From the IMG/VR virus record IMGVR_UViG_3300004369_000033, positions 1-45,962 of that record: a stretch of 45,962 nt of DNA; one strand, given 5' to 3'. Every line of letters begins with the position of its first letter. The first letter of the stretch is position 1. This stretch comes from a virus. Shown here one piece after another: positions 26,566 through 45,452 of this stretch. The notes beneath the pieces were generated by a model. The model was not told the origin of the DNA and did no database searches. It saw only the letters and a list, made by a program, of their open reading frames with translations. A program made the translations under genes and the position numbers.

Positions 26566-27378
26566 ATGACCGTTACAAACTCCACAAGACTGGGCCTGAT
26601 CTACTGGAGTTCGGACGCAGACCCCGTCACCCGAGAACAATTCCAGGAAAGCCACGAAGCCCTGGAAAACTTTGCCGTCAAAATGACGACAGGGACGACC
26701 CTCCCTACCCCTGCAGCCACATATGAAAAGTCGCTGTTTTACAAGACTGACACACAAATTCTCTACTACTACCAGGGAACTGGATCATCCGGAACCTGGG
26801 TGCCGGTTAATAACTTTGGTGGCACCGTACAAGGCCTAACGCTAGGCGGGTCCACCTCGGCTGGATCCTCTACCTTTGCCGCCCGTGCGGACCACGTCCA
26901 TGCTGTCCCCTCGGCAATATCAAACACCATTGTCAATGCCAAGGGCGATATCATTGCAGCGACGGCAAATGATACGGTGACAAGAATTGCCGTAGGAACC
27001 AATGGACAGGTACTGGCTGTCAATAGTTCTACGTCTACTGGCCTAACTTGGCAAGATCCTGCGTCAACGCTGATTGTTTCGGCGACTATGCCGTCGTCAC
27101 CCGTAGAGGGTGACATTTGGTTTGACACCAATACTGGACGTCAGTTTGTTTACTACGACAGCTTCTTCGTCGAGATGGGTACTGCGTCTGACCTCGCAGC
27201 TGATGTCATTGACGCAAAGGGCGACCTGCTGGTCGGCACTGCAGCCAACACTCTTGACAGATTGCCGGCTGGTACTGATGAGCAGGTTTTGATTGTCGAC
27301 TCTAGCGAGACTGCCGGTGTAAGATGGGCCGACCCCGCGAGTGGTTTCGAAAAAACATTTTTGTTGATGGGAGCATAA
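26566..27378 (+). CDS. Tail fibre protein with KGD-type repeats (cassette I)
   Basis: A 270-residue fibre protein. The N-terminus (SDADPVTREQFQESHEALE) probably attaches to the baseplate. Two ~45-residue repeats follow the pattern AKGDhh-GTAxxTxxRh-GTxxQVLxxxSSxxxGhxWxxP, around residues 120-170 and 217-262. Between them is a SSPVEGDIWFDTNTGRQFVYYD module that recurs in the genes at 32993 and 39851. The end, KTFLLMGA, resembles the PFLLMGV end of the gene at 43198. It opens the first of three adhesin cassettes. The same repeat occurs in the genes at 39851 and 43398. Confidence 0.8.
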   Translation: MTVTNSTRLGLIYWSSDADPVTREQFQESHEALENFAVKMTTGTTLPTPAATYEKSLFYKTDTQILYYYQGTGSSGTWVPVNNFGGTVQGLTLGGSTSAGSSTFAARADHVHAVPSAISNTIVNAKGDIIAATANDTVTRIAVGTNGQVLAVNSSTSTGLTWQDPASTLIVSATMPSSPVEGDIWFDTNTGRQFVYYDSFFVEMGTASDLAADVIDAKGDLLVGTAANTLDRLPAGTDEQVLIVDSSETAGVRWADPASGFEKTFLLMGA

Positions 27379-27708
27379 ATGCCTACAGTGTACAGAGTCT
27401 TGGGGCAGTCAGCTCCTTCGGCAACAACTGCAACAACTATTTATACAGTACCTTCTAGTACTCAGACTGTTGTGTCGAGCATAACTGTCTGTAATCGGTC
27501 GGCAAGTAATGCTACGTATCGAATTTCCATCCGTCCGGATGGGGCTGTCCTAGCCAATCAGCATTACTTGATCTATGATGCGCAAGTACTTGCAAACGAT
27601 ACGGTAACCCTAACTCTGGGAATTACAATGGATGCTGCCGATGTTTTAGAAGTTTATGCTTCTTCTGCAGAAATTTCATTTAATTTATTTGGTTCGGAGA
27701 TTTCTTAA
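27379..27708 (+). CDS. Small beta-sandwich fibre-associated protein (cassette I)
   Basis: A 109-residue, almost all-beta protein (TTIYTVPSSTQTVVSSITVC, NATYRISIRPDGAV, NDTVTLTLGITMDAADVLEV) ending in SFNLFGSEIS. The protein at 43760 is a diverged paralogue with the same length and layout (VTTTIVLGCQAAN, LTVRADGTND, ILKARTASADDLHLTLSILEIS). Such small proteins occur among phage fibre genes and probably form a trimeric or decorating fibre domain. It is directly followed by the glycine-rich tip gene, as is its paralogue. Confidence 0.7.
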   Translation: MPTVYRVLGQSAPSATTATTIYTVPSSTQTVVSSITVCNRSASNATYRISIRPDGAVLANQHYLIYDAQVLANDTVTLTLGITMDAADVLEVYASSAEISFNLFGSEIS

Positions 27709-28581
27709 ATGACAGCAATACCCGTTAATAAATTAGGTCTCTCGGGTTCGGGCAAAACTAGAAACGCAAATTTTGTTCCGGCATCCACGGAGATTCTTTG
27801 GAGCGCGAGTCCATCTCCAGCGGTTACCTCAACGCCATTTACTAAAAATTCAGAAGAATTCATACTTTTAAAGGTCACTGCTAGCACCACTCTCTCTTTT
27901 TCCGGGATACATCCCTCAATACCAGTTCCTAGTAGCGCCTATGCCGATGTTCTTATTGTTGGTGGTGGCGGCAGTGCTTCGGGTCAGGGCGGCGGCGGTG
28001 GTGGTGGTGTTTTACTAAAAACAACATCTCTGACAAACGGACCATACCCATTAACTGTAGGTGCAGGCGGCGGCAACCCTTCCTCTGGTTTTTCCCATAC
28101 TGCAACTGGCGGCGGTGGTGGTGGCGGTGGCAGTGGTGGTTCTGGAGGGGGGGCAAATATTGCTCCCCCGGTCTACCCAAGTCAATTAAGTGGCGGTAGT
28201 GGCACTGGCGCCCCAACTTATCTAGGTTTTCCGGGGGGTTCCACGAGAAGCATATATAGCCCAACGATTCCAGCAGTAGTTGGTGGAGGGGGAGGCGGCG
28301 CAGGTGGAGCGGGCCTTGGCGCCTCTACTGTAAGTTATAGCGGAAACGGCAGTGGTGGTTCAGGTCGCGTCTTTTTCGATTTTTTCGGTCCGGGCGTGGT
28401 CGCAGTTGCCGGCGGCGGTGGTGGTGGCGGCGGACCGGCTGGCAATGCTTCAGGTGGCATCGGTGGGGGTGGATCGGGCGGAGGCGCAGGCGGGAGCGCA
28501 ACAGGTGGTGGTGGCGGCGCACCAGGCGGCGCCGGTGGCAGTGGTGTAATTTACGTTATGTTCAAGAGGTTCCAGGGATAA
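27709..28581 (+). CDS. Glycine-rich adhesin/fibre tip (cassette I)
   Basis: A 290-residue protein: a ~75-residue beta-type N-terminus (FILLKVTASTTLSFSGIH) leads to YADVLIVGGGGS and then about 190 residues dominated by glycine runs separated by variable polar segments, ending with GGSGVIYVMFKRF. The same design (short beta domain, ADV/EYVVVAGGGG, glycine runs, SGIVIhR end) is shared by the proteins at 40983 and 44086. Glycine-rich tips of T4-like gp38 adhesins pack as polyglycine helices and present variable loops to the receptor; that mode is inferred here. G-runs of six and seven bases (28233-28238, 28147-28153) are potential slippage sites. Confidence 0.8.
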   Translation: MTAIPVNKLGLSGSGKTRNANFVPASTEILWSASPSPAVTSTPFTKNSEEFILLKVTASTTLSFSGIHPSIPVPSSAYADVLIVGGGGSASGQGGGGGGGVLLKTTSLTNGPYPLTVGAGGGNPSSGFSHTATGGGGGGGGSGGSGGGANIAPPVYPSQLSGGSGTGAPTYLGFPGGSTRSIYSPTIPAVVGGGGGGAGGAGLGASTVSYSGNGSGGSGRVFFDFFGPGVVAVAGGGGGGGGPAGNASGGIGGGGSGGGAGGSATGGGGGAPGGAGGSGVIYVMFKRFQG

Positions 28582-28943
28582 TGGCACATTTTGCAAAAAT
28601 CAATGAGGACAACATAGTTGAAGCTGTAGTTGTTGTGTCAAACGACGACCTGCTCGACGCAAAGGGTATCGAGCAGGAGCAGCAGGGCATTGAAGTTTGC
28701 AACAATGTGTTGGGTTCTGGTCGCTGGGTGCAAACTTCCTTTAATGCATCCTTCAGAAAAACTTTTGCTCATCCTGGTTATTTCTACGATCAAGAATTGG
28801 ATATTTTCTATAATCCAACACCCCCTCATCCATCGTGGACGCTTGATGAGAACTTTGATTTTCAGCCTCCCGTAGCAAAACCTGCGAGCGGAATCCATAT
28901 TTGGGATGAGCCGACGCTGTCCTGGATACAATTGCCGTCTTGA
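28581..28943 (+). CDS. 'MAHFA'-type fibre-associated protein (cassette I)
   Basis: A 120-residue protein, TAATG-coupled to the glycine-rich tip gene. The pattern MAHFAKINEDNIVEAVVVV, NDDLLDAKGIEQEQQGIEV, GRWVQTSFNASFRKTFAHPG and YFYDQELDIFYNP is known from aquatic phages, particularly cyanophages, among fibre genes. The same N-terminal domain occurs at 41714 and 45045, each time directly after a glycine-rich tip. This constant pairing suggests it binds, folds or caps the tip protein. Confidence 0.78.
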   Translation: MAHFAKINEDNIVEAVVVVSNDDLLDAKGIEQEQQGIEVCNNVLGSGRWVQTSFNASFRKTFAHPGYFYDQELDIFYNPTPPHPSWTLDENFDFQPPVAKPASGIHIWDEPTLSWIQLPS

Positions 28944-28957
28944 TTTTTTAGTTCGCC

Positions 28958-28986
28958 TTGACGGTTGTATGCGGGGTTATTAGATT
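28958..28986 (+). promoter_or_regulatory. Near-consensus promoter for oxygenase genes, probably leaderless
   Basis: TTGACG (28958-28963), a 17-base spacer and TAGATT (28981-28986) form a good sigma70-type promoter. The ATG of the first oxygenase follows six bases after the -10 box, so transcription would begin at or within a base or two of the start codon. No Shine-Dalgarno is present. This gives the oxygenase genes their own transcription unit inside the fibre region. Confidence 0.68.
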
Positions 28987-28992
28987 TATCTC

Positions 28993-29589
28993 ATGTCCGA
29001 AAAAGAACCCCTAATTGCTAAGGCGCTATTTGACGACAAGACCCATAGCGGCATAATTGACTTTGTCAATAAGCGGACTCCGCTAATGTCATTGCAGGTC
29101 GATGAAACCACCTTTATTAGAAAATATAGCCACAATACTCCATTTTTTGTTTCCATCCATCGCCATCTTTCAGATTTTGCATCCGAGCAATTTGGCGAAC
29201 CTTTAAAGCCGTCTTATGTTTTTCTATCAATGTATGAAGACGGCGGAATATGCCCGCTTCACATCGATCGGCCACAGTGCTATCGCACCATTGACTACCT
29301 AATCACGCAGGACGACCAAGAACCGTGGCCAATTTTAATTGGCGAGCCAATGAGCAACGAAGATCGAGAAAAGCTTGTAGAAAGCAACGCCTGCCATCCC
29401 AAAGAAGATTCAGAAATTGCCGAACGCATTGCTGCGGAAACTTGGCACGAGGTTCTCCTGATGCCCAATGATGCCGTCCTTTACTCGGGAACTCACTCAT
29501 GGCACTACCGCCCGAAGCCTATAAAGGGCAAGGCAACGCTTGTATTTTTCCACTTTGTCCCGGAGGCATTCGATGGTCCGCTCGACTAA
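28993..29589 (+). CDS. 2OG-Fe(II) oxygenase 1
   Basis: A 198-residue protein of the cupin-type 2-oxoglutarate/Fe(II) dioxygenase superfamily. The iron ligands appear as CPLHIDRP (His90, Asp92) and SGTHSWHYRPK (His168 or His171, with Arg173 for 2OG binding), followed by the strand ATLVFFHFV. VLLMPNDAVLYSG is the strand before the distal His. It would hydroxylate an unknown substrate using O2 and 2-oxoglutarate. First of three neighbouring, mutually diverged oxygenase genes; overlaps the second by 17 bases. Confidence 0.8.
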   Translation: MSEKEPLIAKALFDDKTHSGIIDFVNKRTPLMSLQVDETTFIRKYSHNTPFFVSIHRHLSDFASEQFGEPLKPSYVFLSMYEDGGICPLHIDRPQCYRTIDYLITQDDQEPWPILIGEPMSNEDREKLVESNACHPKEDSEIAERIAAETWHEVLLMPNDAVLYSGTHSWHYRPKPIKGKATLVFFHFVPEAFDGPLD

Positions 29590-30211
29590 GCCCGTCAATC
29601 TCACTGTCGATCTACCGAAACTTGGCAGGGCTGACGCACCCGGTGGAGGCTGGCATTTCAAGCAGGACTTCCCGCACGAATGGTGCTGGTTCATCGACGC
29701 CTTCACCCCAGCCGAACTGGACGCCATCATCCGCATCGGCGAACAGATTGAGATGGACAAGGGTGTAACTGGTGGCAGCAATTCACCCAAGGTCCGTGAC
29801 TCCTATGTGTCGTGGCTCTTTCCGAACGAAGTGACAGGCTGGGTGTACGAACGCATGGCCGGTGTCGTCACTGCCATGAACGAACAGTTCTACGGATTCG
29901 ACCTGGACGGCTTCTTCCAAGGATTCCAGTTTACCAAGTACACCGCACCAGGCCAGCACTACACCTGGCACGTCGATCGTGGCGGTGGACATGGTGTCCG
30001 CAAACTCTCGGTTTCGTTGCTGTTGTCCGACCCTGACGACTATGAGGGTGGAGACTTGCAGTTGAAGTACGGCGAAGATGAGCAGACGGTTGAACGGAAG
30101 AGGGGAATGATGACGCTGTTCCCGTCCTGGTCACTTCACAGGGTCACGCCTGTTACGAAGGGAACTCGCTACTCGCTGGTGGCGTGGGTTAGTGGCCCGC
30201 CGTTCAAGTGA
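29573..30211 (+). CDS. 2OG-Fe(II) oxygenase 2, prolyl 4-hydroxylase-like
   Basis: A 212-residue protein from ATG 29573, which has CGGAGG six bases upstream; longer starts overlap the previous gene without support. It matches the P4Hc type: FIDAFTPAELDAIIRIGE, SYVSWLFPNE, FTKYTAPGQHYTWHVDRG (His133, Asp135), SVSLLLSDPDDYEGGDLQL and LFPSWSLHRVTPVTKGTRYS (His189, Arg199), all ligands present. Enzymes of this type hydroxylate proline or related residues in proteins. The DNA is visibly more GC-rich than the two flanking oxygenase genes, suggesting separate acquisition. Candidate substrates are the Gly-X-Pro stretches of the adhesin at 40983. Confidence 0.88.
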   Translation: MVRSTKPVNLTVDLPKLGRADAPGGGWHFKQDFPHEWCWFIDAFTPAELDAIIRIGEQIEMDKGVTGGSNSPKVRDSYVSWLFPNEVTGWVYERMAGVVTAMNEQFYGFDLDGFFQGFQFTKYTAPGQHYTWHVDRGGGHGVRKLSVSLLLSDPDDYEGGDLQLKYGEDEQTVERKRGMMTLFPSWSLHRVTPVTKGTRYSLVAWVSGPPFK

Positions 30212-30726
30212 TCTGCATGAAGTCTAGTATTAAGGTTATAGACAATGCCCTCAGTTGCGAGGAGGCCGATCGCCTTGAGTCGGTAATCTGCTCGCAGAAA
30301 TTCCCTTGGTACTTTAGCGATAAGATAAATGGCGACGACTATCCGTCAAATAAGGAAACGGGCGACTTTCAATTTACTCATCCCATCTTTAGCTATGACT
30401 CGCCCTTAACTGACCTCGCGCCACTTTTCATGCCTCTTGTGCATATGTTGCACCCAATACAGGTGATCCGCATGAAGGCAAATCTTAATACCCAACACCC
30501 AAGGAAATTGGTATATGGGTTTCATCGCGATCTACCGGTCGAACATAACGAAAAAATCGCTATTTTCTACCCAACGACAGCCGATGGCCCCACCGTGTTT
30601 GAGGACGGGTCATCTGTCGAGGCAGTCAAGAATAGGCTAGTATTATTTCCATCTTCGGTACTACACTCTGGAACAACGCCCGTTACGACCAAGTGTCGCA
30701 TTGTGGTCAACATGATCTACCAGTAG
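30208..30726 (+). CDS. 2OG-Fe(II) oxygenase 3
   Basis: A 172-residue protein from GTG 30208, overlapping the previous stop (GTGA); ATG 30217 is an alternative. Iron and 2OG ligands are seen in YGFHRDLP (His106, Asp108) and SSVLHSGTTPVTTKCRIVVNM (His153, Arg164), in the expected order and spacing. The start, IKVIDNALSCEEADRLE, resembles many phage oxygenases. Mutational or horizontal divergence from its two neighbours is strong, so the three are not recent duplicates. Substrate unknown. Confidence 0.8.
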   Translation: MICMKSSIKVIDNALSCEEADRLESVICSQKFPWYFSDKINGDDYPSNKETGDFQFTHPIFSYDSPLTDLAPLFMPLVHMLHPIQVIRMKANLNTQHPRKLVYGFHRDLPVEHNEKIAIFYPTTADGPTVFEDGSSVEAVKNRLVLFPSSVLHSGTTPVTTKCRIVVNMIYQ

Positions 30727-30770
30727 CGATCACGATTTGATCTACTATTCTTGAGTCAATCATCAAGAGG

Positions 30771-30776
30771 TATAAT
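30771..30776 (+). promoter_or_regulatory. Likely -10 box ahead of fibre gene 30810
   Basis: A perfect TATAAT at 30771-30776 lies in the 83-base gap after the oxygenase genes. TTGAGT (30751-30756) precedes it with only 14 bases, shorter than usual. The context GGTATAAT matches that before the sheath gene. It probably starts the 30810-37630 fibre transcript. Confidence 0.45.
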
Positions 30777-30809
30777 TGCGGAGGCAGGACCATTTGATGG
30801 AGTTTTCGG

Positions 30810-32992: not shown

Positions 32993-34933
32993 ATGGCTTT
33001 TAAGATTTTTAGTGTTATCCGGGCGCGGTTCTTCAACACCGTCTCCGATACTGCCTTTGACATTGGTCTAAATGGGGAGACAAACCCGAAGCTGTCGATT
33101 GACGCGGGCGGAAAAATTTCCTGGGGCGCTGGCGACGTATCAACAGTAGATACGAACCTCTATCGCGACAGCGCCAATGTCCTAAAGACGGACGACACCT
33201 TCAAAGCATCTGCACTTTTTGTAGATGGTATTGAAATTGATACGACTGGTGCCACGTCGCAGCAATTCCTTACTTTTGACGGCACGAAGTTCGCACCGGC
33301 TACGGTTACCTACGGAACATCTGATGTTTCTCAACTAGATGACCTTCTCGACGTCAGTATTAGTAGCCCTTCGACTGACCAGGTACTCAAGTATGACGGC
33401 ATAGCCTGGACTAACGCCAGTGTCAGTGCGGCAGTTACAGATCTCGACGGCCTGACCGACGTTGTCATTACCTCCGCGACAAATGGTCAGCTACTTGTAC
33501 ATAATGGAACGAATTGGGTAAACGACACGCTCCCAACTATGGAGCCGATGGGTCATGAGGATCGAACCGACAGCACAATCTCATTCAACAATGGCACCCG
33601 CGTCTTCACGATCCAGCCAGCAGTTTCGTCGTACACCATTTGGTGTGCAGGCAATCGGTACGTCAAGTCATCTGCATCAACAGTAACAATCCCAGACACA
33701 ACTGGGTTGTACTACATTTATTTCGATTCCTCCGGCGTTCTCCAGTACAAAACAACATATTTTACTTGGGACGCAGATACTCCCACGGCTTACATCTATT
33801 GGAACTCGACCACCGGAGCAGCCGAGTTCTTTGCCGATGAGCGTCACGGTATCACTCTCGATTGGCAAACCCACGAGTACCTTCACAGAACGCGCGGCGC
33901 TGCCATTGCCTCTGGCTTTGGAATCAGTAGCTATTCGACAGATGGAGATGGCTCTTCGGATGCCCACACTCAGTTAGCTCTTGCCGGCGGTACGTTCTTC
34001 GACGAAGACCTCCAAGTTGATATCACGCATGCAGCCTCACCAACAGCCAACACTTGGGAGCAGGTCCTCGAGGGTACTGCCGAGATTCCCGTGTTCTATA
34101 GAAGCGGTACAGCCTGGGTTAAAGACACTGCTACAACCTCGCCTTTCAAGGCCGGCACCTCTCGGGCGCAGTACAACGTTGAAAGTGGAGGCTCGTGGTC
34201 AACTGCAGACGTTGCTAACAATAAATACGGAGCGATGTGGATTGTCGCCACTAACAATCTGAATGAACCAGTTATTGCGATTCTTGGCCAAACTGCAGCC
34301 GACAACCAAAGCACAATCGAAGAGAGACAGTGGGAGGACCTCGATTTAGACGGTCTGCCAATTTTTGAGATTAGGCCTCTTTATCGTATTGCGTTTGTTG
34401 CCAGTGATACGTTTTCTAACACCCTAAAAGCTGCCATCCGAGGCGTTCTTGACATCAGGCGAGCGATCTCTTCCGGGTCTGGTATTCCATCGGAAGCCGT
34501 ATCCGATCATGGAACAATGACCGGACTTGCTGACGATGATCACACTCAGTACTTGACTACAGGACGCCATGATTCGCACGATCATTCGTCAGCCATGTCG
34601 AGCGTTGTTCTGGATGATATTTCGAATGTCAGCGTTTCTTCTCCGACCACTGGCGACTTTTTAAAGTGGGATGGATCTTCATGGACGAGTGCTGCCGGCG
34701 GGTCTGCTGTTTCGGTATCAGATACTCCACCTGGAAGTCCATCTTCTGGCGAGCTGTGGTGGGAGTCAGATACTGGCAAGTTGAAGATTTATTACAACGA
34801 TGGAGATTCTTCTCAATGGGTAGATGCCTACACTTCTCGCGCTAACGTTCATCTCATCAACTCGAACATTGATGGAGGATCAGCCTCGAGTAACTACGGT
34901 GGAATCCTGGCACTAAATGGAGGTTCGGCCTAA
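32993..34933 (+). CDS. Large tail fibre protein
   Basis: A 646-residue fibre, the largest of the region. Repeated stalk segments of the type DLLDVSISSPSTDQVLKYDG recur at LDGLTDVVITSATNGQLLVH and ISNVSVSSPTTGDFLKWDG. A middle domain (TVTIPDTTGLYYIYFDSSGV, EFFADERHGITLDWQTHEYL) resembles structural modules in other aquatic phages. Near the end are DDHTQYLTTGRHDSHDHSS, with His residues often binding metal in fibre trimers, and the PPGSPSSGELWWESDTG module shared with the genes at 26566 and 39851. TAATG coupling to the next gene. Confidence 0.82.
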   Translation: MAFKIFSVIRARFFNTVSDTAFDIGLNGETNPKLSIDAGGKISWGAGDVSTVDTNLYRDSANVLKTDDTFKASALFVDGIEIDTTGATSQQFLTFDGTKFAPATVTYGTSDVSQLDDLLDVSISSPSTDQVLKYDGIAWTNASVSAAVTDLDGLTDVVITSATNGQLLVHNGTNWVNDTLPTMEPMGHEDRTDSTISFNNGTRVFTIQPAVSSYTIWCAGNRYVKSSASTVTIPDTTGLYYIYFDSSGVLQYKTTYFTWDADTPTAYIYWNSTTGAAEFFADERHGITLDWQTHEYLHRTRGAAIASGFGISSYSTDGDGSSDAHTQLALAGGTFFDEDLQVDITHAASPTANTWEQVLEGTAEIPVFYRSGTAWVKDTATTSPFKAGTSRAQYNVESGGSWSTADVANNKYGAMWIVATNNLNEPVIAILGQTAADNQSTIEERQWEDLDLDGLPIFEIRPLYRIAFVASDTFSNTLKAAIRGVLDIRRAISSGSGIPSEAVSDHGTMTGLADDDHTQYLTTGRHDSHDHSSAMSSVVLDDISNVSVSSPTTGDFLKWDGSSWTSAAGGSAVSVSDTPPGSPSSGELWWESDTGKLKIYYNDGDSSQWVDAYTSRANVHLINSNIDGGSASSNYGGILALNGGSA

Positions 34934-35565
34934 TGGCTGTACAGATTCAACTACGAAATGACACGGCCGCCAACTGGACGTCAGCTAACCCCACTCTCGC
35001 ACAGGGCGAGATGGGCATAGAGAACGACACTAATAAGTACAAAATTGGCGATGGTTCAACAGCTTGGAATTCCTTAAGTTACTCAAGCTTGCCCGCTGGC
35101 TCAGCAACGCTCACAGGCACCGAGACCCTAACTAACAAGACCCTGACAGCCCCCGTGATCAATAACGCCGTTCTACAGGGGGCTGAGGAGTCGTGGAATG
35201 TTGCGGCGACAGCTGCGACTGGCACAGTCAACTTTGATACCTTGACTTCAACGGGATGGCTGTACACATCTGACGCCTCAGGCAACTGGACGCTGAATGT
35301 TCGAGGCGATGGCTCTACGACGTTGGCGAGCCTGTTGGATACGGGTGATTCCATCACGGTGGTGTTTGCCGTAACGCAGGGAGCAACCCCGTATTACGCT
35401 TCGGCGTTACAAATTGATGGGTCTGCCGTTACTCCTGAGTGGCAGGGTGGTTCGGCCCCTACCGCTGGTAATGCTTCCTCAATCGACGTGTACGTTTACA
35501 CGATTATCAAGACGGCGGCGACACCGACCTATACGGTGTTGGCGTCTCAGACGCAGTTTGCTTAG
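34933..35565 (+). CDS. Fibre protein with Mtd N-terminal-like domain and jelly-roll end
   Basis: A 210-residue protein. The N-terminus (IQLRNDTAANWTSANPTL, GEMGIENDTNKYKIGDGSTA) is the Mtd_N-type module of the Bordetella phage tropism determinant and many fibres. A linker with LTGTETLTNKTLTAPV follows, then a C-terminal ~120-residue beta domain (ESWNVAATAATGTVNFDTL, GNWTLNVRGDGSTTLASLL, YTVLASQTQFA) shared with the end of the protein at 39851. It probably forms a compact trimeric receptor-binding unit. Confidence 0.78.
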   Translation: MAVQIQLRNDTAANWTSANPTLAQGEMGIENDTNKYKIGDGSTAWNSLSYSSLPAGSATLTGTETLTNKTLTAPVINNAVLQGAEESWNVAATAATGTVNFDTLTSTGWLYTSDASGNWTLNVRGDGSTTLASLLDTGDSITVVFAVTQGATPYYASALQIDGSAVTPEWQGGSAPTAGNASSIDVYVYTIIKTAATPTYTVLASQTQFA

Positions 35566-35574: not shown

Positions 35575-36534
35575 ATGCCTATTGTTGCGGGCAGGTCGAA
35601 CGCTGGTGTGTACGGTTTAGGTTGGGGTTCAGCCAAGGGCATTGGGTCACGAGCAATTTTTGGCCGTGGTTTTGTTAGTGGGCAACAGTCAGTAAATCTT
35701 GATTACGTCACTATTGAAACAACTGGCAACGCTGGGGATTTTGGCGATTTGATAAGTAACCCTGATAGGTCTAATGGTCAGGCTGGTTCAACAACGAGAG
35801 GCGTTTTCTCGTCGGTGGGTAGCAACACATACCAGTATGTCACGTTTGCAACAATTGGCAACGCCACCGATTTCGGTGATGCAAGAACAACGACTATTGC
35901 AGATGGCGGTTCATCTTCAAACGAGACAAGACAAATTGTTGCTTATGGATGGTCAAGTATAGGCAATACCTACAGCAACATTATTGACTACCTCACTATA
36001 GCGACAACAGGCAACTCGGTATCGTTTGGAAACCTTACCAACACACGTGGGTATTGTACTGGGGCGTCGTCTACAACTAGGGCATTGAACGGTGGCGGAT
36101 ATACGGGTACGTTTTTCAATACGATTGATTATGTGACTATTGCTACTACGGGCAACGCCACCGATTTCGGTGATTTGTTGGCGGCTTCGTATGCCCCTGG
36201 TTCATGCACCTCATCTACACGAGCAGTTTTCGTTTGTGCCACCAAACTCAACGGCGGTCACACTGCCACAAATATTTTAGAATATGTAACAATGGCAAGT
36301 ACTGGGAACTCTACTGATTTTGGTGATTTGGATTCTACTCAATCCTCGCCCCCAGCCGCATCTAACAAATTGCGTGGGGTGATTGCTGGTGGATATGCTA
36401 CTGGTGCTGTTTTGAGAACAGACATTCGGTATATAACCATCGCTACAACAGGAAATACCACAGATTTCGGTGATTTGCTTGAAGGTAAATATTCCCTGCA
36501 AACAGTTTGCAACAACCACGGCGGTATCGCATGA
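35575..36534 (+). CDS. Beta-propeller-like repeat protein (receptor-binding candidate)
   Basis: A 319-residue protein with AGGAG seven bases before ATG 35575. Six repeats carry the pattern hxYhThxTTGNxTDFGDL, separated by 45-50 residues with small-residue segments such as SSTTRALNGGGYTG, resembling kelch-like blades. The sixfold repeat suggests a propeller, as seen in related proteins of cyanophage fibre regions. It could bind host surface glycans. It is coupled to the next gene by ATGA and forms with the two following genes a block that looks different from the modular fibres around it. Confidence 0.75.
   Translation: MPIVAGRSNAGVYGLGWGSAKGIGSRAIFGRGFVSGQQSVNLDYVTIETTGNAGDFGDLISNPDRSNGQAGSTTRGVFSSVGSNTYQYVTFATIGNATDFGDARTTTIADGGSSSNETRQIVAYGWSSIGNTYSNIIDYLTIATTGNSVSFGNLTNTRGYCTGASSTTRALNGGGYTGTFFNTIDYVTIATTGNATDFGDLLAASYAPGSCTSSTRAVFVCATKLNGGHTATNILEYVTMASTGNSTDFGDLDSTQSSPPAASNKLRGVIAGGYATGAVLRTDIRYITIATTGNTTDFGDLLEGKYSLQTVCNNHGGIA
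35857..36174 (+). repeat. 24-base exact repeat inside propeller gene
   Basis: A 24-base stretch encoding GNATDFGD is identical at 35857-35880 and 36151-36174, while other copies of the same motif in the gene have drifted. Exact identity at DNA level between two of six blades points to recent duplication or gene conversion and offers a site for recombination that would change blade number. Confidence 0.7.
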
Positions 36535-37340
36535 GCAACATCGAACTCAAAACCATTTCAGGCGACCTTGAAATTTCTGGCACCTACAAAACAATGCTGG
36601 AAAAAATCAATAACGCATTACCAGCAACAATTCTTGATTCTGAAAACTTCAACAAATCATCGTCCCAGTTCAAAGCCGCAACACTTGATGTTGCCGACTT
36701 GACACCAATCAATGCCGCACGTCATATCCTGGCAACTATCAACCGCACTCGTCAAGCCTTGGAAGAAGCCCAACTAGGTTTGCGGAAAGAGAACGTCAAG
36801 CACGCCCGTTTGACAGAAGAACTTGACTCCTGCATCGACCGTTGGCGCAGGGAAGAAATACAAATTGAACTTGATGAGATAGAAACCCGCAGAGCGAACG
36901 GCGAAGCATCAGTCCGTGGGGCCATCCGTAAACTGCATTTCAACATCAACCAATACCAGGCGATTCTTGAACATCTTGGTGTAGACGCAATTACGGAAGA
37001 AATGTATGAACATGACCAGGTTCGCTATCACATTATGACAGCGTTCAATCAGGCGTTGACTGCGGCCCGTTCCCGCAACGGATATATTGACGAAGGCAAC
37101 CATATCTATCTGTTTCAGTTGGGTATCAACGGTGCGGTCGCTCAAATGGAAGTTGACTGGTTATTGAATGCTGAGGCCCAATTACTCAATGACGGGAAAG
37201 CACCGACACACAAGATGGTGACTAACTGGCTTGAAGCGTGTGCCGATAAATATGCAGGTAATGCCCAAGAATACGCCCAGCGTCGAGGCGTCCTCGCTTT
37301 TGATGAATCGTCTTTGTTGGCGTTGGAACGAGGTGAATAA
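36531..37340 (+). CDS. Helical hypothetical protein following propeller gene
   Basis: A 269-residue protein from ATG 36531 (ATGA overlap). After a beta start (NIELKTISGDLEISGTYKT) it is largely helical, with a coiled-coil part (RQALEEAQLGLRKENVKHA, IQIELDEIETRRANGEASV) and later helices (YHIMTAFNQALTAARSRNG, MVTNWLEACADKYAG). This composition is unlike the beta fibres around it. It resembles proteins seen next to propeller-like genes in aquatic phages; a chaperone or fibre-assembly role is possible but not shown. Confidence 0.68.
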   Translation: MSNIELKTISGDLEISGTYKTMLEKINNALPATILDSENFNKSSSQFKAATLDVADLTPINAARHILATINRTRQALEEAQLGLRKENVKHARLTEELDSCIDRWRREEIQIELDEIETRRANGEASVRGAIRKLHFNINQYQAILEHLGVDAITEEMYEHDQVRYHIMTAFNQALTAARSRNGYIDEGNHIYLFQLGINGAVAQMEVDWLLNAEAQLLNDGKAPTHKMVTNWLEACADKYAGNAQEYAQRRGVLAFDESSLLALERGE

Positions 37341-39850: not shown

Positions 39851-40981
39851 ATGGGAACTCGTAAAAACTTCGTAGTACCTGGTGGATTGACGATTGACTC
39901 GTCAACGCTTTACGTCGATGACCCCAATAACCGCGTTGGAGTAGGCAAGACCAACCCAGATCATGAACTCGATGTAGCGGGGGTAATTAGAGCGTCTAAC
40001 GGTGTAGTCACGCTAACTAGCGCCGGCACCCCATCAGCCACTTTGCCAGATGGTGCAATCGCCATCGACACCACAAATGCAAAGCTCTTCTTCCGCTCTG
40101 GGTCTACTTGGAACGAGGTAACTGGAGGGGGCGGCGGCGGTGGTGGAGGTTCTCTTACAGTTGCAACAACAGCACCAAGCTCGCCCTCAGAAGGCGATCT
40201 ATGGTTCGAATCCGATACCGGAATTACATTCGTTTACTATGACTCGTTTTGGGTCGAAATCGGACCAAATGTTGTTGACAACCTTTCTGCTCAAGTTACA
40301 ACTAAGGGCGATATTTTAGTTGGGAACACCACCAACGATCTCGATCGCCTCGGAGTCGGAACAGACTCCTATATTCTTACCGCTGACAGTTCAGCTACAT
40401 ACGGCCTTATGTGGAAGCCGCCGTACGACATAATGACTGCCAAAGGAGACTTGATAGCTGGCGGGGGTGTAGATAGCGCTGGGATTGTCAGTATAGGGAC
40501 ACAAGATTCTTTGCTTGTTGCCGATACTGCTAGCGGACAGGGGATGAAGTGGACCCTTCAGCCGCAAAACCTACTACTGACCAAGTCCGTTTGCGTGAGT
40601 CTAAAGGAAAAGTGGTCCGTGACAGCAACGGTCGCTACTGGAACGGTAAACTTGGACTGCGCAGACTATGGGGCATTTTATTTTACGGCTAGTGCTTCGG
40701 CCGACTGGACATTCAATTTAAGAGGCAGTGCGATTTCCTCTTTTTCAGATATCGTGTCTGTTGGTGAATCTTTGACGGTTGCTATTTTAGTAACAATTGG
40801 TGCAACTGAATACAGACCAACTGTCATACAAATTGATGGAGCAACACAAACCGTAAAATGGCAAACCGGTAACGCCCCTACCATTGGTAATATAAACTCT
40901 ATTGACGCCTATTTATTCACTGCTATTAGAACCGGATCAAGTACTTATTTAGTAACCGGTAGCCAAACAAAGTTTGCCTGA
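39851..40981 (+). CDS. Tail fibre protein with KGD-type repeats (cassette II)
   Basis: A 376-residue fibre. The N-terminal part (GGLTIDSSTLYVDDPNNRVG, GAIAIDTTNAKLFFRSGSTW) is stalk-like and ends in a glycine run. Then come the SSPSEGDLWFESDTG / FVYYDSFWVE module shared with the 26566 and 32993 proteins, two KGD-type repeats (TTKGDILVGNTTNDLDRLG; AKGDLIAGGGVDSAGIVSIG), and a C-terminal beta domain (EKWSVTATVATGTVNLDCA, STYLVTGSQTKFA) shared with the 34933 protein. It opens the second adhesin cassette, preceding a glycine-rich tip gene. Confidence 0.8.
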   Translation: MGTRKNFVVPGGLTIDSSTLYVDDPNNRVGVGKTNPDHELDVAGVIRASNGVVTLTSAGTPSATLPDGAIAIDTTNAKLFFRSGSTWNEVTGGGGGGGGGSLTVATTAPSSPSEGDLWFESDTGITFVYYDSFWVEIGPNVVDNLSAQVTTKGDILVGNTTNDLDRLGVGTDSYILTADSSATYGLMWKPPYDIMTAKGDLIAGGGVDSAGIVSIGTQDSLLVADTASGQGMKWTLQPQNLLLTKSVCVSLKEKWSVTATVATGTVNLDCADYGAFYFTASASADWTFNLRGSAISSFSDIVSVGESLTVAILVTIGATEYRPTVIQIDGATQTVKWQTGNAPTIGNINSIDAYLFTAIRTGSSTYLVTGSQTKFA

Positions 40982-40982
40982 C

Positions 40983-41714
40983 ATGCCCACAGTTTCTTCC
41001 TTCGGTAATTTATCTGGTGGTGGCACCGGACCCGGTCGAGGCCCCAACAAAAGTACGTTAGTCTCCAGTCCAGCGCCAGCAATGACCAAGACAAGTTATG
41101 GAGACTATGTTATTTACACGTTTAACGCAACATCAACATTTGCTGTTGTTGGTAGAAGCTCTAGTTCTGTAGATGTATTTCTAGTTCAGGGTGGTACGCC
41201 TGGAGGTGGCCCAGTTGGACAAAGTTTTCCAGGCGCTGCCGGCGGCGCTGGTGGGGCAAGAAAAACTGCTACTACTACTATCAACGCATATAATAGTTAT
41301 CCTGTTGTTATCGGTGGGGCTTCAACTCACTCAACATTAGGGCCACTAACGTCTTCGGGTGGAACTGCTGGTGGCGCTGGTGGCGCTGGTGGTGGCCCTG
41401 GTGTCCCTGGTAGCCCTGGTGGCCCTGGTCCAACAAATAATTACCGAACTGGTTCTGCCGTAAACTATGGCGGCGGAGGCGGAGGTGGAGGCGGCGGGAA
41501 CATCGGCACCTTGCAGCCGGGGGGTTCAGGTGGCGCTGGGGGTGGCGGTGGTGGTAACGGTGGTGCTGGAACTGCCAACACGGGTGGTGGCGGTGGTGGT
41601 GGCTCTGGTGGTTATCAGACGTCATTCAAAGGCCCATGGGTTCCTGGTGGACCTGGAGGTCCTGGAGGATCGGGAATAGTTGTCATCAGAGCGCCAAAGG
41701 ACTATTTTGAGTAA
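40983..41714 (+). CDS. Glycine-rich adhesin/fibre tip with collagen-like triplets (cassette II)
   Basis: A 243-residue protein from ATG 40983; the TTG at 40974 overlaps the upstream gene. After a beta-type N-terminus (TSYGDYVIYTFNATSTFAVV, SSVDVFLVQGG) it is dominated by glycine runs and ends GGSGIVVIRAPKDYFE. Around 41390-41435 Gly-X-Pro triplets occur in a row (GGP GVP GSP GGP GPT), and another Pro-rich stretch (VPGGPGGPGGSG) near the end. Pro in the third position before Gly is the classical site of prolyl 4-hydroxylation in collagen, which links it to the P4H-like gene at 29573 by inference. Confidence 0.78.
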   Translation: MPTVSSFGNLSGGGTGPGRGPNKSTLVSSPAPAMTKTSYGDYVIYTFNATSTFAVVGRSSSSVDVFLVQGGTPGGGPVGQSFPGAAGGAGGARKTATTTINAYNSYPVVIGGASTHSTLGPLTSSGGTAGGAGGAGGGPGVPGSPGGPGPTNNYRTGSAVNYGGGGGGGGGGNIGTLQPGGSGGAGGGGGGNGGAGTANTGGGGGGGSGGYQTSFKGPWVPGGPGGPGGSGIVVIRAPKDYFE

Positions 41715-42772
41715 TGGCCTACTTCACGGAACTTGACGATGATAACTACGTAATTCGAGTTATTTCAATCAACAATGAAGACATCCTAGATGAGGACAAT
41801 AATGAGTCTGAGGATAAGGGGATTGAAATATGCATAAGCGCGTGTGGTCCGGGCAGATACGTCCAAACGTCGCGCAATACAAAAAATAACGTTCATTACG
41901 ACCCAGATACCTGGACACCTGACGGCGGGGTCCCATTCAGGCGAAATTTTGGAGACGTTGGATTTTTATACTCAGATCTACACGACTGTTTCTTGCCCCC
42001 ACCACCAGAGGCCTGGTACGAGCTTGACGAAAACTTAGAATGGGTTTGTCCATCGGACATAGGGCCTAAGACTGGTCAGCCATTCACTCACGAAGAACTC
42101 TTGTATATAGGTCACTTAGTCAATACCTCGGAGATTTATTCTCTTGTTCCTTTGTCTACCCCCAACGAAGACCCACTATCAACTATTTGCAGCACAACAG
42201 AATTCGCAATATCAGATATAACCGAAATCACGCATGGGGTAAATACTCACACCTGGTTCTATCTGGACGAACAGGGGAACTTTAACATTGATTATCAGGA
42301 CGACTATTCAATCGAACTTGACCTTTCTCCTATAGCAGTAATAACTAGATTTTCGCTAAAAACAGGCATCGAGAAGTCCAATGCTGTCAGTAAATTTTGC
42401 TACGAACAGCATCCGCAAAATGAGTCATTCAGCATTCATGAGTGTTTTAGAATGATTATCGAGTGGGCATTTTCTTACACTGATTTGAATAATAGTGAAC
42501 CGATGGCCGAGCTGGCTCACAATTTCCTGAGATGCGTTCAAATGCCGTTGAATGTTAGAAATGAGCTAATAAATTCGGTTGAGTCACAAGTAGTTGGTCT
42601 GTACTTGACTGATGACGATATTTACAAACCATTTTACCGTACTGAAAAAACGGAAATGCCAATCCTTTTCTCGGACTGGTACCAAAATATCAAAAACCAA
42701 TTTCCGGCGAGAGAGACGGGCGACGCGTTACCAGTAGATCTAAACTCACTTCCAGCGAGCTACCCCAAGTGA
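41714..42772 (+). CDS. 'MAHFA'-type protein with a unique C-terminal domain (cassette II)
   Basis: A 352-residue protein. The first ~115 residues match the MAHFA domain (AYFTELDDDNYVIRVISIN, NEDILDEDNNESEDKGIEIC, GRYVQTSRNTK, FRRNFGDVGFLYSD), with a short insertion compared with copies at 28581 and 45045. About 235 further residues follow that the paralogues lack: beta-rich first (THTWFYLDEQGNFNIDYQD, SIELDLSPIAVITRFS), then helical (FSIHECFRMIIEWAFSY, MAELAHNFLRCVQMPLNVR). I do not recognise this domain. The gene is AT-richer than its neighbours. Confidence 0.72.
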   Translation: MAYFTELDDDNYVIRVISINNEDILDEDNNESEDKGIEICISACGPGRYVQTSRNTKNNVHYDPDTWTPDGGVPFRRNFGDVGFLYSDLHDCFLPPPPEAWYELDENLEWVCPSDIGPKTGQPFTHEELLYIGHLVNTSEIYSLVPLSTPNEDPLSTICSTTEFAISDITEITHGVNTHTWFYLDEQGNFNIDYQDDYSIELDLSPIAVITRFSLKTGIEKSNAVSKFCYEQHPQNESFSIHECFRMIIEWAFSYTDLNNSEPMAELAHNFLRCVQMPLNVRNELINSVESQVVGLYLTDDDIYKPFYRTEKTEMPILFSDWYQNIKNQFPARETGDALPVDLNSLPASYPK

Positions 42773-42791: not shown

Positions 42792-42800
42792 TGGTAAAAT
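42792..42800 (+). promoter_or_regulatory. Extended -10 promoter, leaderless, for 42807 gene
   Basis: TG-G-TAAAAT at 42792-42800 is an extended -10 element. The ATG at 42807 follows exactly six bases later, as before 37690, and both downstream genes encode the same FPSSP-type N-terminus. No Shine-Dalgarno is present, in keeping with a leaderless mRNA. Confidence 0.6.
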
Positions 42801-42806
42801 GAAGAC

Positions 42807-42998
42807 ATGGCAGCAATAGATTTTCCGAATAGCCCAACAGAGGGGGATACCCACACGGTTGGAGACAGGACCTGGAAATATACTGGTGGTGTCTGGAAAA
42901 TACAGTCGTCCATTGGCGGCGCTTTGGTAAACATTGACGGCGGCCTGCCAGGCAGTGTTTATGGTGGAGTTCCAACACTTGACGGAGGTGGACCGTGA
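42807..42998 (+). CDS. Short FPSSP-type fibre protein
   Basis: A 63-residue protein consisting almost only of the module AIDFPNSPTEGDTHTVGDRT, WKYTGGVWKIQS and a Gly-rich tail (GGLPGSVYGGVPTLDGGG). It is the free-standing version of the N-terminal module at 37690 and resembles the gene at 45452. The tail contains a GGAGG that serves as ribosome binding site of the next gene (42995), which it overlaps. Confidence 0.68.
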   Translation: MAAIDFPNSPTEGDTHTVGDRTWKYTGGVWKIQSSIGGALVNIDGGLPGSVYGGVPTLDGGGP

Positions 42999-43189
42999 GT
43001 GAGGTCGTTAAGGTTCAGTTCAGGCGTGGAGCTGCCTCGGAGTGGTCTGATTCAAATCCAACTCTGCATTTAGCTGAAATTAGTCTCGACCTGACTAACT
43101 CAAAAATTCGAATTGGAGATGGCCTCCATGCATGGGCGGATTTGCCAAATCTTTTGACACGCGAAGTTAGTCACCCGTTTTTTTTGTAG
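42995..43189 (+). CDS. Short Mtd_N-like fibre protein
   Basis: A 64-residue protein from GTG 42995 with GGAGG six bases upstream. It is a single Mtd N-terminal-type module (VKVQFRRGAASEWSDSNPTL, KIRIGDGLHAWADLPN) ending in HPFFL. The end is encoded by a run of eight T, so slippage would change the C-terminus. It is followed by two further genes starting with the same module. Confidence 0.65.
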   Translation: MSEVVKVQFRRGAASEWSDSNPTLHLAEISLDLTNSKIRIGDGLHAWADLPNLLTREVSHPFFL

Positions 43190-43197
43190 GGATAAAT

Positions 43198-43398
43198 ATG
43201 GCTGTTCGAATTATTGTACGCAACGGAACATCTTCTCAGTGGTCTTCAGAGAATCCTCTTTTGTCTGAGGGCGAGCTGGGTATCGAAAGCGATACCAAAC
43301 ACTTAAAAGTTGGCAATGGCGTTGATAACTGGAATGACCTCAGTTACTGGTACATTGGTGATCGTCCCCTTAGTCCGTTTCTGTTGATGGGTGTCTGA
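43198..43398 (+). CDS. Short Mtd_N-like fibre protein
   Basis: A 66-residue protein composed of one Mtd_N-type module (RIIVRNGTSSQWSSENPLL, GELGIESDTKHLKVGNG, WNDLSYW) and a short end SPFLLMGV. The end recalls KTFLLMGA of the 26566 fibre and HPFFL of the gene before. It overlaps the start of the next gene by one base. Probably a short fibre or an attachment adaptor. Confidence 0.68.
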   Translation: MAVRIIVRNGTSSQWSSENPLLSEGELGIESDTKHLKVGNGVDNWNDLSYWYIGDRPLSPFLLMGV

Positions 43399-43760
43399 TG
43401 CCTACAAGAATTCAATTCAGAAGAGGAACTGCTGCCCAATGGACATCTGCTAACCCAGTGTTGGCCGAAGGTGAATTGGGCCTCGAGACCGATACTCAAA
43501 AATACAAAATTGGCAACGGCACTGACACGTGGTCCAGCATTTCCTACCAGAGTCTTCCAGGCAATGCTTTTGACATAACCGACATCAACGCGAAGGGCGA
43601 TTTGATGGTTGGTTCTGCGGACAATTCGGCGGCAATTTTGCCTGTTGGTTCCAATGGCCAGCTACTTGTGGCCGATTCGTCAGCTGCAAATGGTGTAAAA
43701 TGGGCAAACCCCGTTGACGTGGGCGATATAGCCCTCGTAATTGCTCTTGGAGGCCTATAG
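43398..43760 (+). CDS. Short fibre with Mtd_N module and KGD-type repeat (cassette III)
   Basis: A 120-residue protein. The first half is the Mtd_N-type module (RIQFRRGTAAQWTSANPVL, GLETDTQKYKIGNGTDTW) and the second half one KGD-type repeat (NAKGDLMVGSADNSAAILPV, GQLLVADSSAANGVKWANP). It therefore joins two modules otherwise found in separate fibre genes (34933 and 26566). It starts the third adhesin cassette; its stop overlaps the next GTG. Confidence 0.75.
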   Translation: MPTRIQFRRGTAAQWTSANPVLAEGELGLETDTQKYKIGNGTDTWSSISYQSLPGNAFDITDINAKGDLMVGSADNSAAILPVGSNGQLLVADSSAANGVKWANPVDVGDIALVIALGGL

Positions 43761-44083
43761 TGGCAAACACGTTTAAAGTTGTGACTTACTCAGTCAGCGC
43801 CTCCCTAACCGACTTTTATACAACTCCTGCTGTAACGACGACCATTGTTTTGGGTTGTCAGGCCGCAAACATGACCCCGTCTTCCGCAACATGGCTGACG
43901 CTGACCGTTAGAGCCGATGGAACAAATGACATCAGTCTCGTCGAACAAGTAGCAGTTCCAGCCAAGTCGACAATTTCTCCAGTTACAGGAAAATTAGTTC
44001 TGGAGGCCGGAGACATTCTTAAGGCAAGAACAGCATCCGCCGATGACCTTCACTTGACTCTGTCAATTTTGGAGATTTCGTAA
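43760..44083 (+). CDS. Small beta-sandwich fibre-associated protein (cassette III)
   Basis: A 107-residue all-beta protein from GTG 43760, paralogous to that at 27379: same length, TTPAVTTTIVLGCQAAN, WLTLTVRADGTND, KLVLEAGDILKARTAS and the end LTLSILEIS. As at 27379 it stands between a KGD-repeat fibre and a glycine-rich tip, which supports cassette duplication. Confidence 0.7.
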   Translation: MANTFKVVTYSVSASLTDFYTTPAVTTTIVLGCQAANMTPSSATWLTLTVRADGTNDISLVEQVAVPAKSTISPVTGKLVLEAGDILKARTASADDLHLTLSILEIS

Positions 44084-44085
44084 AT

Positions 44086-45045
44086 ATGAAAGATAACAAT
44101 GGCGGTATTCTCGGCTCCTATAACGAAGCCAGTGTACTTAGCGCGCCTGGCGTATGGAACCTCGAAGAGCAGTATAAGTTTGGCAAGGCCAACCAGTGGC
44201 CGGGAGCATTGTCGTTCTCCGTAACTCCAAGCTCCTCCTATGAGTATTTCGCTGATGACACGTACATCGGGCTGGTATTTACTGCAAGCGCTACATTCAC
44301 AGTAGATGCAGGATCATCAGACCTCGAGTATGTAGTAGTAGCAGGTGGTGGTGGTGGTGGGCATAGCTCGGTAAATGCCGCCGGCGGGGGTGCAGGAGCT
44401 GGCGGTTACAGAACCGGCACTTTTCCAGGTTTCGGTCCTGGGACGTACCCCATAACAATCGGTGGTGGCGGGAATGGTGGAACCAGCCCTGGCGCTCCTT
44501 CTCAGCCGACCGCTGGATCGCCCTCCGTATTTCACAACATAACCTCAGCTGGCGGCGGCATTGGGGGTTGGCCCGCTAATGGCGCAGGCGGCAACGGTGG
44601 TAGCGGTGGGGGGGGAGGTACTTCTTACAACGCGGGAACAGGCGTGGCTTACACTCTTTCTGGTCTCGGCGGTTCCGGTAACACACCCCCTACTTCACCG
44701 CCCCAGGGCAATAATGGAGGCAGGGGGGCATATGAGTCTACGCCACCAGGGAACTTTGCAAGTGGTGGTGGCGGTGGCGGTGGCGGTGCTGGAGGTGCTG
44801 GAGGAAACACCAATGCGCCAGCAATGTGGGGATTTGGAAACCCTGGCCCTGGAACAACAAATACTTGGGACGGTTCATCACGTACGCTTGCTGTGGGAGG
44901 GATTGGCGGCTCTTCTGGCGGTGGTCCCGGAACTCCGGGGTCAGCCAATACTGGCAATGGTGGTGGCGGCGCTGGTGGCGTTTCCCCCCAAAACCCTGGT
45001 GGTTCTGGAGGTTCTGGAATAGTTATTCTTAGGTGGACCAAGTAA
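44086..45045 (+). CDS. Glycine-rich adhesin/fibre tip (cassette III)
   Basis: A 319-residue protein with a beta-type N-terminus (SFSVTPSSSYEYFADDTYIG, TASATFTVDAGSSDLEYVVV) followed by long glycine runs with intervening polar, Pro-containing loops (GTFPGFGPGTYPITIGGGG, NPGPGTTNTWDG) and ending GGSGIVILRWTK. It is the longest of the three tips. An uninterrupted run of eight G at 44608-44615 lies in the coding sequence and is a good candidate for slippage. The Pro-rich ORF on the opposite strand is a shadow. Confidence 0.8.
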   Translation: MKDNNGGILGSYNEASVLSAPGVWNLEEQYKFGKANQWPGALSFSVTPSSSYEYFADDTYIGLVFTASATFTVDAGSSDLEYVVVAGGGGGGHSSVNAAGGGAGAGGYRTGTFPGFGPGTYPITIGGGGNGGTSPGAPSQPTAGSPSVFHNITSAGGGIGGWPANGAGGNGGSGGGGGTSYNAGTGVAYTLSGLGGSGNTPPTSPPQGNNGGRGAYESTPPGNFASGGGGGGGGAGGAGGNTNAPAMWGFGNPGPGTTNTWDGSSRTLAVGGIGGSSGGGPGTPGSANTGNGGGGAGGVSPQNPGGSGGSGIVILRWTK

Positions 45046-45452
45046 TGGCCCATTTTGCTGAAATTGATGACAACAATGTTGTTGTGAGAATTGTAGTGAT
45101 AGACAACGCTGCTTTGCTTGACGAATCAGGCAATGAAAACGAAAGCTTGGGAAAAGCAGAGTGTCTAAGAATTTTTGGTGAAGGTAGATGGGTTCAGACT
45201 TCCTACAATAATCAGCTTCGGCGTCGATTTGCTGGAATCGGATATACCTATGATGAAGGGAAAGACGCGTTCATATCCCCGAAACCATCAGACAATCATG
45301 TGCTTAATCCAATTTCCCTATCTTGGTATATCCCAAATAAACCAGAATTCAAATGGGACGAAGATCAGTCTGAGTGGGTTTTAGTAGAGTGGGTGGATCC
45401 TAATTTATTCGTTGAGAGCTACCATTCAAACCCCAACCCGGGAGCTGAGTAA
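45045..45452 (+). CDS. 'MAHFA'-type fibre-associated protein (cassette III)
   Basis: A 135-residue protein from ATG 45045, TAATG-coupled to the tip gene. It has the full pattern MAHFAEIDDNNVVVRIVV, DNAALLDESGNENESLGKAE, GRWVQTSYNNQLRRRFAGIG and YTYDEGKDAFISPKP, the best match in the window to the type seen in cyanophages. The C-terminus (FKWDEDQSEWVLVEWVDP) differs from the copies at 28581 and 41714, so the end is the variable part. Confidence 0.8.
   Translation: MAHFAEIDDNNVVVRIVVIDNAALLDESGNENESLGKAECLRIFGEGRWVQTSYNNQLRRRFAGIGYTYDEGKDAFISPKPSDNHVLNPISLSWYIPNKPEFKWDEDQSEWVLVEWVDPNLFVESYHSNPNPGAE

Follow-up and report, generated by a model that had tools for sequence, protein, structure and literature searches.

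Three fibre-tip-MAHFA cassettes in an uncultured contractile-tailed phage and a proposed chaperone role for the MAHFA protein

Introduction

Why should one phage carry three sets of genes, each encoding a repeat fibre, a glycine-rich tip and a protein of the MAHFA family? The question is raised by IMG/VR virus record IMGVR_UViG_3300004369_000033, which we analysed over its whole length of 45,962 bases (hereafter the window) and which may itself be a fragment. The presence of terminase, tail sheath and tape-measure genes indicates a contractile-tailed phage, and on its gene content the window is an uncultured virus of bacteria of this type. The three sets lie at 26566-28943 (cassette I), 39851-42772 (cassette II) and 43398-45452 (cassette III), and all the open reading frames (ORFs) from which the original prediction had assembled three cassettes were recovered. 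Each set comprises a fibre (F1 to F3), a tip (T1 to T3) and a MAHFA protein (M1 to M3). We consider it probable that each cassette forms a host-recognition unit with its own tip and with MAHFA as a dedicated folding chaperone, and that new tips come as whole cassettes.

Results

Most MAHFA genes follow glycine-rich tip genes

In all three cassettes a TAATG stop-start overlap joins the tip gene to the MAHFA gene, which suggests that the two proteins are made together. The tip II ORF was listed from a TTG at 40974; the ATG at 40983, chosen in the original prediction, is the more natural start. Promoter and terminator patterns between 26400 and 31200 were close to chance.

The gene order was examined in four samples of loci. 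Sample 1, picked by MAHFA, held the best 80 of at least 576 stretches in viral contigs that encode a MAHFA relative; 78 of them have an upstream ORF (L007 and L010 were left out). Taking as glycine-rich any ORF with at least 20% glycine in its last 150 residues, MAHFA was found directly behind such an ORF in 48 of the 78. From the 80 loci we took 30 records, mostly for their longer contigs, in which 35 MAHFA genes were counted of 38 rows, the fragments G006:18959, G023:13100 and G029:74270 being excluded; a row of the window itself, not one of the 38, was also set aside. A PF21722 domain lies on the same strand within 1.5 kb upstream of 28 of these 35 genes (random mean 2.3, maximum 8, 2000 runs) and within 250 bases of 18, against 0.5 by random placement. 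Two MAHFA copies occur in five of the 30 records, which are fragments too, and three copies in none (E < 1e-20).

Sample 2, the only one not picked by MAHFA, consisted of 80 loci picked by a fibre gene (80 of 403 relatives kept). Nine of its 11 MAHFA genes lie at most 40 bases behind a tip and one lies 973 bases behind; the eleventh, in L199, follows a glycine-rich ORF missed by the profile. Among 27 MAHFA-picked loci from contigs of prokaryote genomes, mostly metagenome-assembled (sample 3), MAHFA is directly behind a tip in 22 and 636 bases behind one in another; two of the remainder have the tip directly downstream, one is without upstream sequence, and in one no tip was found. Eight of 39 MAHFA-picked named phage records made up sample 4: MAHFA stands directly behind the tip in five (Greip, HTVC008M, Melnitz-3, Bellamy and CRP-207), and the tip lies 0.9 to 2.8 kb upstream in the other three.

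The gene before MAHFA in Greip (L258:1-421) carries the annotation of a gp10-like DNA stabilization protein but ends in a glycine-rich tip (profile E 2e-33). Small non-MAHFA genes stand behind tip-like or hypothetical genes at L186:18042-18425 and L261:2719-3027, one of them annotated as 'tail assembly chaperone' in Melnitz-3; such genes behind tips are possible alternative chaperones. The contigs L282 and L284, from Roseinatronobacter thiooxidans and Rhodovulum sp. 12E13, also hold tip-MAHFA pairs, perhaps as prophages in culturable hosts.

The tip III model matches Pam3 gp24, and the MAHFA model modestly resembles gp25

The model of tip III, built from 34 sequences, reached a predicted local distance difference test score (pLDDT) of 82.7, roughly the first 38 residues being poor. 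It matches gp24 of phage Pam3 (7ypx_A) with Z 14.7 and 2.9 Å over 189 amino acids at 28% identity, the tail tip of Bxb1 with Z 13.7 and the glycine-rich domain of ALK/LTK with Z of about 7. Foldseek gave E values of 5.6e-4 for 7ypx_A and 1.9e-5 for Bxb1. A sequence search of the PDB with tip III alone found no match, and the tip profile found only marginal Pam3 matches among PDB sequences (E 0.038 and 0.089). As modelled, tip III is a TNF-like/glycine-rich fibre tip of the Pam3 gp24 fold type; tips I and II would be of the same type by homology. Tips of the gp24 type dock on the baseplate by an N-terminal helix; in T3 most of residues 1-38 are below pLDDT 50, and the separate fibre gene may stand in for this helix.

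Two circularly permuted tip layouts were seen by eye on the tip alignment (34 sequences, namely 31 of the 48 glycine-rich upstream ORFs, picked by length, and the three window tips). The beta motif precedes the glycine-rich part in 12 of the 34, which is the window type, and stands behind it in 22 (e.g. L011, L014 and L026). Layout class is weakly linked to MAHFA distance (p 0.01, kinship ignored).

M1, M2 and M3 all match phrog_7759. The model of M1 (82 sequences, pLDDT 92.4; the alignment took 79 of the 80 locus sequences, L010 repeating L007) was compared by VIA with 86 PDB chains, three of which reached Z 2. The best match is the Pam3 chaperone gp25 (7ypx_a; Z 5.1, 2.1 Å over 53 residues), with model residues 1-78 aligned to chain residues 3-56, the N-terminal capping domain of gp25. 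The fibre chaperone of phage Mu (5yvq_B) follows with Z 2.5 and an unrelated microtubule entry with Z 2.4. Two adjacent genes thus find their counterparts, MAHFA at a modest score, in the pair that makes up the Pam3 complex, with equal gene order. In Pam3, gp25 attaches through its domain of residues 1-55 to the TNF-like/glycine-rich portion of gp24, whose distal glycine-rich end is described as the proposed receptor-binding part (PMC9608196).

Since the MAHFA fold score is insufficient alone, the gene pairing carries the rest of the chaperone case. MAHFA appears more likely to be a folding chaperone of the tip than an adhesin. The original prediction had spoken of adhesin cassettes: fold and homology uphold tips of a receptor-binding type, whereas the gp25-like fold match and the position behind the tip speak against MAHFA as an adhesin part.

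MAHFA members match only PHROG 7759 and PHROG 14370, neither with a function name. In BFVD, none of 14 matches at E 0.001 is functionally named; the non-significant ones include, at E 0.35, 0.76 and 1.4 respectively, a tail assembly chaperone, a DUF4376 protein and a tail fiber assembly protein. In a literature search by the names MAHFA and PHROG 7759, the papers listed were unrelated by title. By this one search and by the Pfam and PHROG libraries, the family is apparently unnamed.

The cassettes are homologous but share no long DNA matches

The possibility, raised with the original prediction, that the cassettes are alike in composition only was set aside by alignments and shuffle scores. 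M1 and M3 are 48% identical over 81 amino acids, M1 and M2 35% over 114, and M2 and M3 35% over 115, with C-termini that vary in length and sequence from cassette to cassette. PF21722 (Gly_rich_2) is matched above the cut-off by tip III, below it by tip I (E 0.024) and not by tip II. A tip profile built without window sequences scored T1, T2 and T3 at 43.2, 28.2 and 84.3 bits. With 200 shuffles of each kind per tip, the maxima for tips I, II and III were -24.0, -17.3 and -17.7 bits after full shuffling and 14.4, 11.4 and 23.3 bits when the glycines were kept fixed, showing that tip homology exceeds composition.

The small gene said to be common to cassettes I and III was also borne out (S1-S3, 30% over 82 amino acids, E 3e-6). 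The conserved N-termini were not: we saw no N-terminal homology among the three fibres, whose likeness is located in the KGD-repeat parts, and of the three only fibre III has an Mtd_N head. Such heads occur on 4 of 54 window proteins. One of them is a mosaic fibre ORF (34933-35565) whose Mtd_N head is 57% identical to fibre III and whose C-terminus is 43% identical to fibre II.

Swapping of tips by recombination, likewise suggested at the outset, found no backing. A DNA comparison covering all three cassette pairs gave, at E 0.001 or better, only matches of at most 44 bases; nearly all of these lie in runs of glycine codons, and one lies at the MAHFA start. Between corresponding parts of the cassettes, amino-acid identity in the best local alignments is 30-53%. 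No reverse transcriptase, integrase, invertase or site-specific recombinase was detected by a Pfam scan of the 54 window ORFs, on a contig that may be incomplete. These ORFs do include a transposase-type helix-turn-helix match and a Rad52-type protein that might favour mosaicism.

Cassette I is missing from related loci

Single-protein searches with 24574-26001 and 36507-37340 gave no close relatives. The sister contigs L173 and L174 were found by tail sheath and L177 by a baseplate gene profile; profiles of three or two sequences then yielded L175-L177 and the fibre-backbone set. L173, L174 and L177 are collinear with the window in the overlap, L174 stopping before the cassette I site. At this site, 119 bases separate the homologues of 26300 and 30810 in L177. 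The site spans about 550 bases in L173, with a listed 87-residue ORF and a further small ORF that looks holin-like by eye, both within L173:12850-13339.

The start-to-start distance of the flanking homologues is 335-788 bases in ten loci (nine and L177), against 4510 in the window. The ten empty-site loci represent about seven lineages, look-alikes, judged so from equal coordinates, being set aside. No tip or MAHFA match lies between the flanking homologues in the nine loci checked for these profiles. As the flanking homologues are close together in relatives, with no cassette between them, cassette I and the three 2-oxoglutarate (2OG)-oxygenase-like genes that follow it are best read as a 4.2-kb insert in the window's lineage. 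No exact direct repeat longer than 9 bases links the examined insert flanks, and we therefore propose no insertion mechanism. The unit that moves would be the whole cassette, cassette I being present here and missing in related loci.

Cassette II is probably older, since it has an orthologue in the relative L199. The long MAHFA of L199 (17640-18653) is 37% identical to M2 over 359 columns, including the C-terminal extension of about 230 residues that the two share as a long MAHFA subtype; it lies behind a glycine-rich ORF, and a homologue of 42807 is found further on. The extension of M2 gave no Pfam match.

2OG oxygenase genes beside MAHFA

The three 2OG-oxygenase-like genes stand in a row behind cassette I (28993-30726), and only the middle one passes the Pfam cut-off. 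Pfam confirms the motif-called 2OG oxygenase in L023 and L071. In 31 MAHFA-holding records, 15 of 20 2OG places (25 overlapping rows merged) are at most 1.5 kb from MAHFA (random mean 2.4, maximum 8, 5000 runs). In sample 2, none of eight 2OG genes is within 2.6 kb of a tip or MAHFA. Because the adjacency is seen in MAHFA-holding records but not in sample 2, we claim no general rule; a general 2OG-tip link was considered and dropped, such proximity being absent from the fibre-gene-picked sample.

Table 1. Features of the three cassettes and of the insert in the window
Feature	Position	Strand	Evidence and remarks
F1, cassette I fibre	26566..27378	+	two KGD repeats (by eye)
S1, cassette I small protein	27379..27708	+	phrog_1276 7e-10; phrog_693 (tail fiber protein) 5e-6; resembles parts of tail fibre families
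T1, cassette I glycine-rich tip	27709..28581	+	phrog_2295 1e-17; outscores own shuffles
M1, cassette I MAHFA, proposed tip chaperone	28581..28943	+	phrog_7759 8e-33; TAATG overlap with T1
2OG-oxygenase look by eye only, no Pfam/NCBIfam match	28993..29589	+	missing with cassette I in relatives
2OG-Fe(II) oxygenase	29540..30211	+	PF13640 3e-18; missing with cassette I in relatives
2OG-oxygenase-like protein	30208..30726	+	DUF6445 and PF13640, both below cut-off; missing with cassette I in relatives
Putative accessory insert, cassette I and three 2OG-like genes	26561..30809	+	ends set by flanking genes, approximate
F2, cassette II fibre	39851..40981	+	two KGD repeats (by eye); C-terminus shares 43% identity with that of ORF 34933
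T2, cassette II glycine-rich tip	40983..41714	+	phrog_2295 7e-8; outscores own shuffles
M2, cassette II MAHFA, C-terminal extension of about 230 residues	41714..42772	+	phrog_7759 3e-19; TAATG overlap with T2
F3, cassette III short fibre	43398..43760	+	Mtd_N head PF18454 1e-16; one KGD repeat (by eye)
S3, cassette III small protein	43760..44083	+	30% to S1
T3, cassette III glycine-rich tip	44086..45045	+	PF21722 2e-18; phrog_2295 2e-37; model matches Pam3 gp24
M3, cassette III MAHFA	45045..45452	+	phrog_7759 2e-35; TAATG overlap with T3

Elsewhere in the window, glycosyltransferase and PAPS reductase genes were noted at 6333-7448 and 9949-11115, between terminase and tail sheath.

Discussion

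We propose that a fibre with KGD repeats, together with a small linker-like protein in cassettes I and III, would carry a separate distal TNF-like/glycine-rich tip. Tip and MAHFA would be produced together. By analogy with Pam3, MAHFA would bind the nascent tip at the junction of its two domains, keep the long flexible glycine-rich strands in register during trimer folding, and leave once the trimer has formed, as proposed for gp25. The tips are divergent and may therefore differ in receptor specificity and let the lineage bind more kinds of cells; new tips would be gained by taking in whole cassettes, not by swaps among the phage's own.

Several observations weigh against a chaperone role for MAHFA. 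The fold match is modest, Z 5.1 being below the level that the alignment tool calls safe. Foldseek alone gave no PDB match at E 0.001 (7ypx_a ranked sixth with E 3.5 and 5yvq_B ninth with E 4.5), and MAHFA sequence searches against solved structures gave none. None of 82 MAHFA members matches a Pfam chaperone family at E 1. The M1 model, to which this check applies, shows no helix beyond residue 44 and so lacks the helical trimerisation domain found in gp25 and Tfa. Because of the missing helical C-terminal domain and of the lack of a chaperone family match, we do not file MAHFA as a Tfa member; it is proposed to be Tfa-like in action and set apart from that family. The pairing also has exceptions. 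In sample 1, 30 of 78 MAHFA genes lack a glycine-rich gene directly in front of them, and 21 of the 30 have a 2OG oxygenase by motif there instead. For seven of the 35 genes in the 30 records, the 1.5 kb upstream holds no PF21722 domain: G002 and G007 have fewer than 400 bases of upstream sequence, the gene in G030 is behind a glycine-rich ORF missed by PF21722 (L083), and G010 has the domain directly downstream. The tip is directly downstream of MAHFA in L267 and L280, and tips without MAHFA exist, L198 having four tips and one MAHFA. Finally, tip and MAHFA distances correlate (r 0.42, p < 0.001, n = 34) but not significantly for 20 divergent pairs (r 0.25, p 0.07); coevolution of cognate pairs was dropped as a candidate since significance was lost after this thinning.

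MAHFA might instead stay on the virion as an outermost cap or second adhesin, tip and MAHFA jointly binding the receptor. We regard this as unlikely: fibre chaperones of Mu and Ur-lambda are reported in mature phages (PMC9608196), the Mu chaperone is the second match of the M1 model, and the MAHFA C-termini vary between cassettes, yet the closest structural match, gp25, went undetected when mass spectrometry of Pam3 virions picked up gp24 (PMC9608196). Identities of 41-52% to M1 were measured in the relatives used, but the sample was picked by MAHFA likeness, so that this identity cannot show MAHFA to be less variable than the tips. Alternatively, MAHFA could be unrelated to tip folding, a small mobile gene gathering in fibre regions beside 2OG oxygenases. 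This would fit the 21 of 78 MAHFA genes directly behind such an oxygenase and the above-random proximity of the 2OG places. It becomes very unlikely in view of G008, G018, G020, G022 and G024, where the oxygenase is immediately preceded by a tip lying 862-873 bases upstream of MAHFA, and of sample 2, where 9 of 11 MAHFA genes abut a tip while 2OG genes stay at least 2.6 kb away.

A tropism switch, in which tips are exchanged by intragenomic recombination or varied by a diversity-generating element, could draw on the mosaic modules of ORF 34933, the four Mtd_N heads and the encoded Rad52-type protein. Given the shortness of the inter-cassette DNA matches, the low amino-acid identities between matching parts and the lack of reverse transcriptase, integrase and invertase families among the ORFs scanned on this possibly incomplete contig, it seems to us extremely improbable. 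Each tip having its own MAHFA chaperone thus remains the reading we favour. A wider version of it is, taken as a whole, quite improbable: aquatic phages would acquire cartridges of fibre, tip and MAHFA whole, several per virion, in some lineages with 2OG oxygenases that hydroxylate the glycine-/proline-rich tip, and MAHFA would be a large chaperone family that caps without the helical domain of Tfa.

Like the gp24/gp25 pair of Pam3 (PDB 7ypx), the cassettes combine a tip of TNF-like/glycine-rich fold with a small gene directly behind, whose product modestly resembles the gp25 capping domain in its N-terminal half. Unlike in Pam3, the tip is encoded apart from the KGD-repeat fibre that precedes it, three pairs occur in one phage, and the M1 model is without the helical C-terminal domain of gp25. 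Tfa of phage Mu (5yvq) is similar in gene position behind the fibre/tip gene and in its weak fold match (Z 2.5), whereas MAHFA has no Pfam match to such a family and no helical C-terminus in the M1 model. In contrast to an Mtd-type diversity-generating element, the 54 window ORFs scanned with Pfam, of a contig that may be incomplete, include no reverse transcriptase. In phage T2, gp38 is a polyglycine adhesin that forms a glycine-rich tip at the fibre end. The polyglycine adhesin gp38 of S16, as described in PMC9608196, likewise places a glycine-rich tip there; its structure was not among the 50 structure matches listed for tip III. The host recognition cluster of pelagimyophages, as described in PMC7029224, likewise places tail fibres in a variable island of the structural region, but the variable unit here is resolved to a single 4.2-kb block flanked by conserved genes. 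Alteromonas phages A5 and V22 share a fibre and its cognate chaperone together between distantly related phages (PMC10579305). On this description, fibre and chaperone would travel as a pair here too; the word glycine is absent from the main text of that paper.

The arrangement is of a known kind, real and well-supported, and it would give a new testable role to a large unnamed family. PHROG 7759 is listed in the library without a function, and its members are encoded by named phages that infect Synechococcus, Prochlorococcus, Pelagibacter, Methylophilales and Roseobacter-type hosts. The empty-site comparison indicates that the lineage differs from its relatives by a whole cassette. Should MAHFA prove to be a tip chaperone, a receptor-binding tip could be predicted from its place in front of a MAHFA gene, and this would aid the finding of tips in ocean and lake phages.

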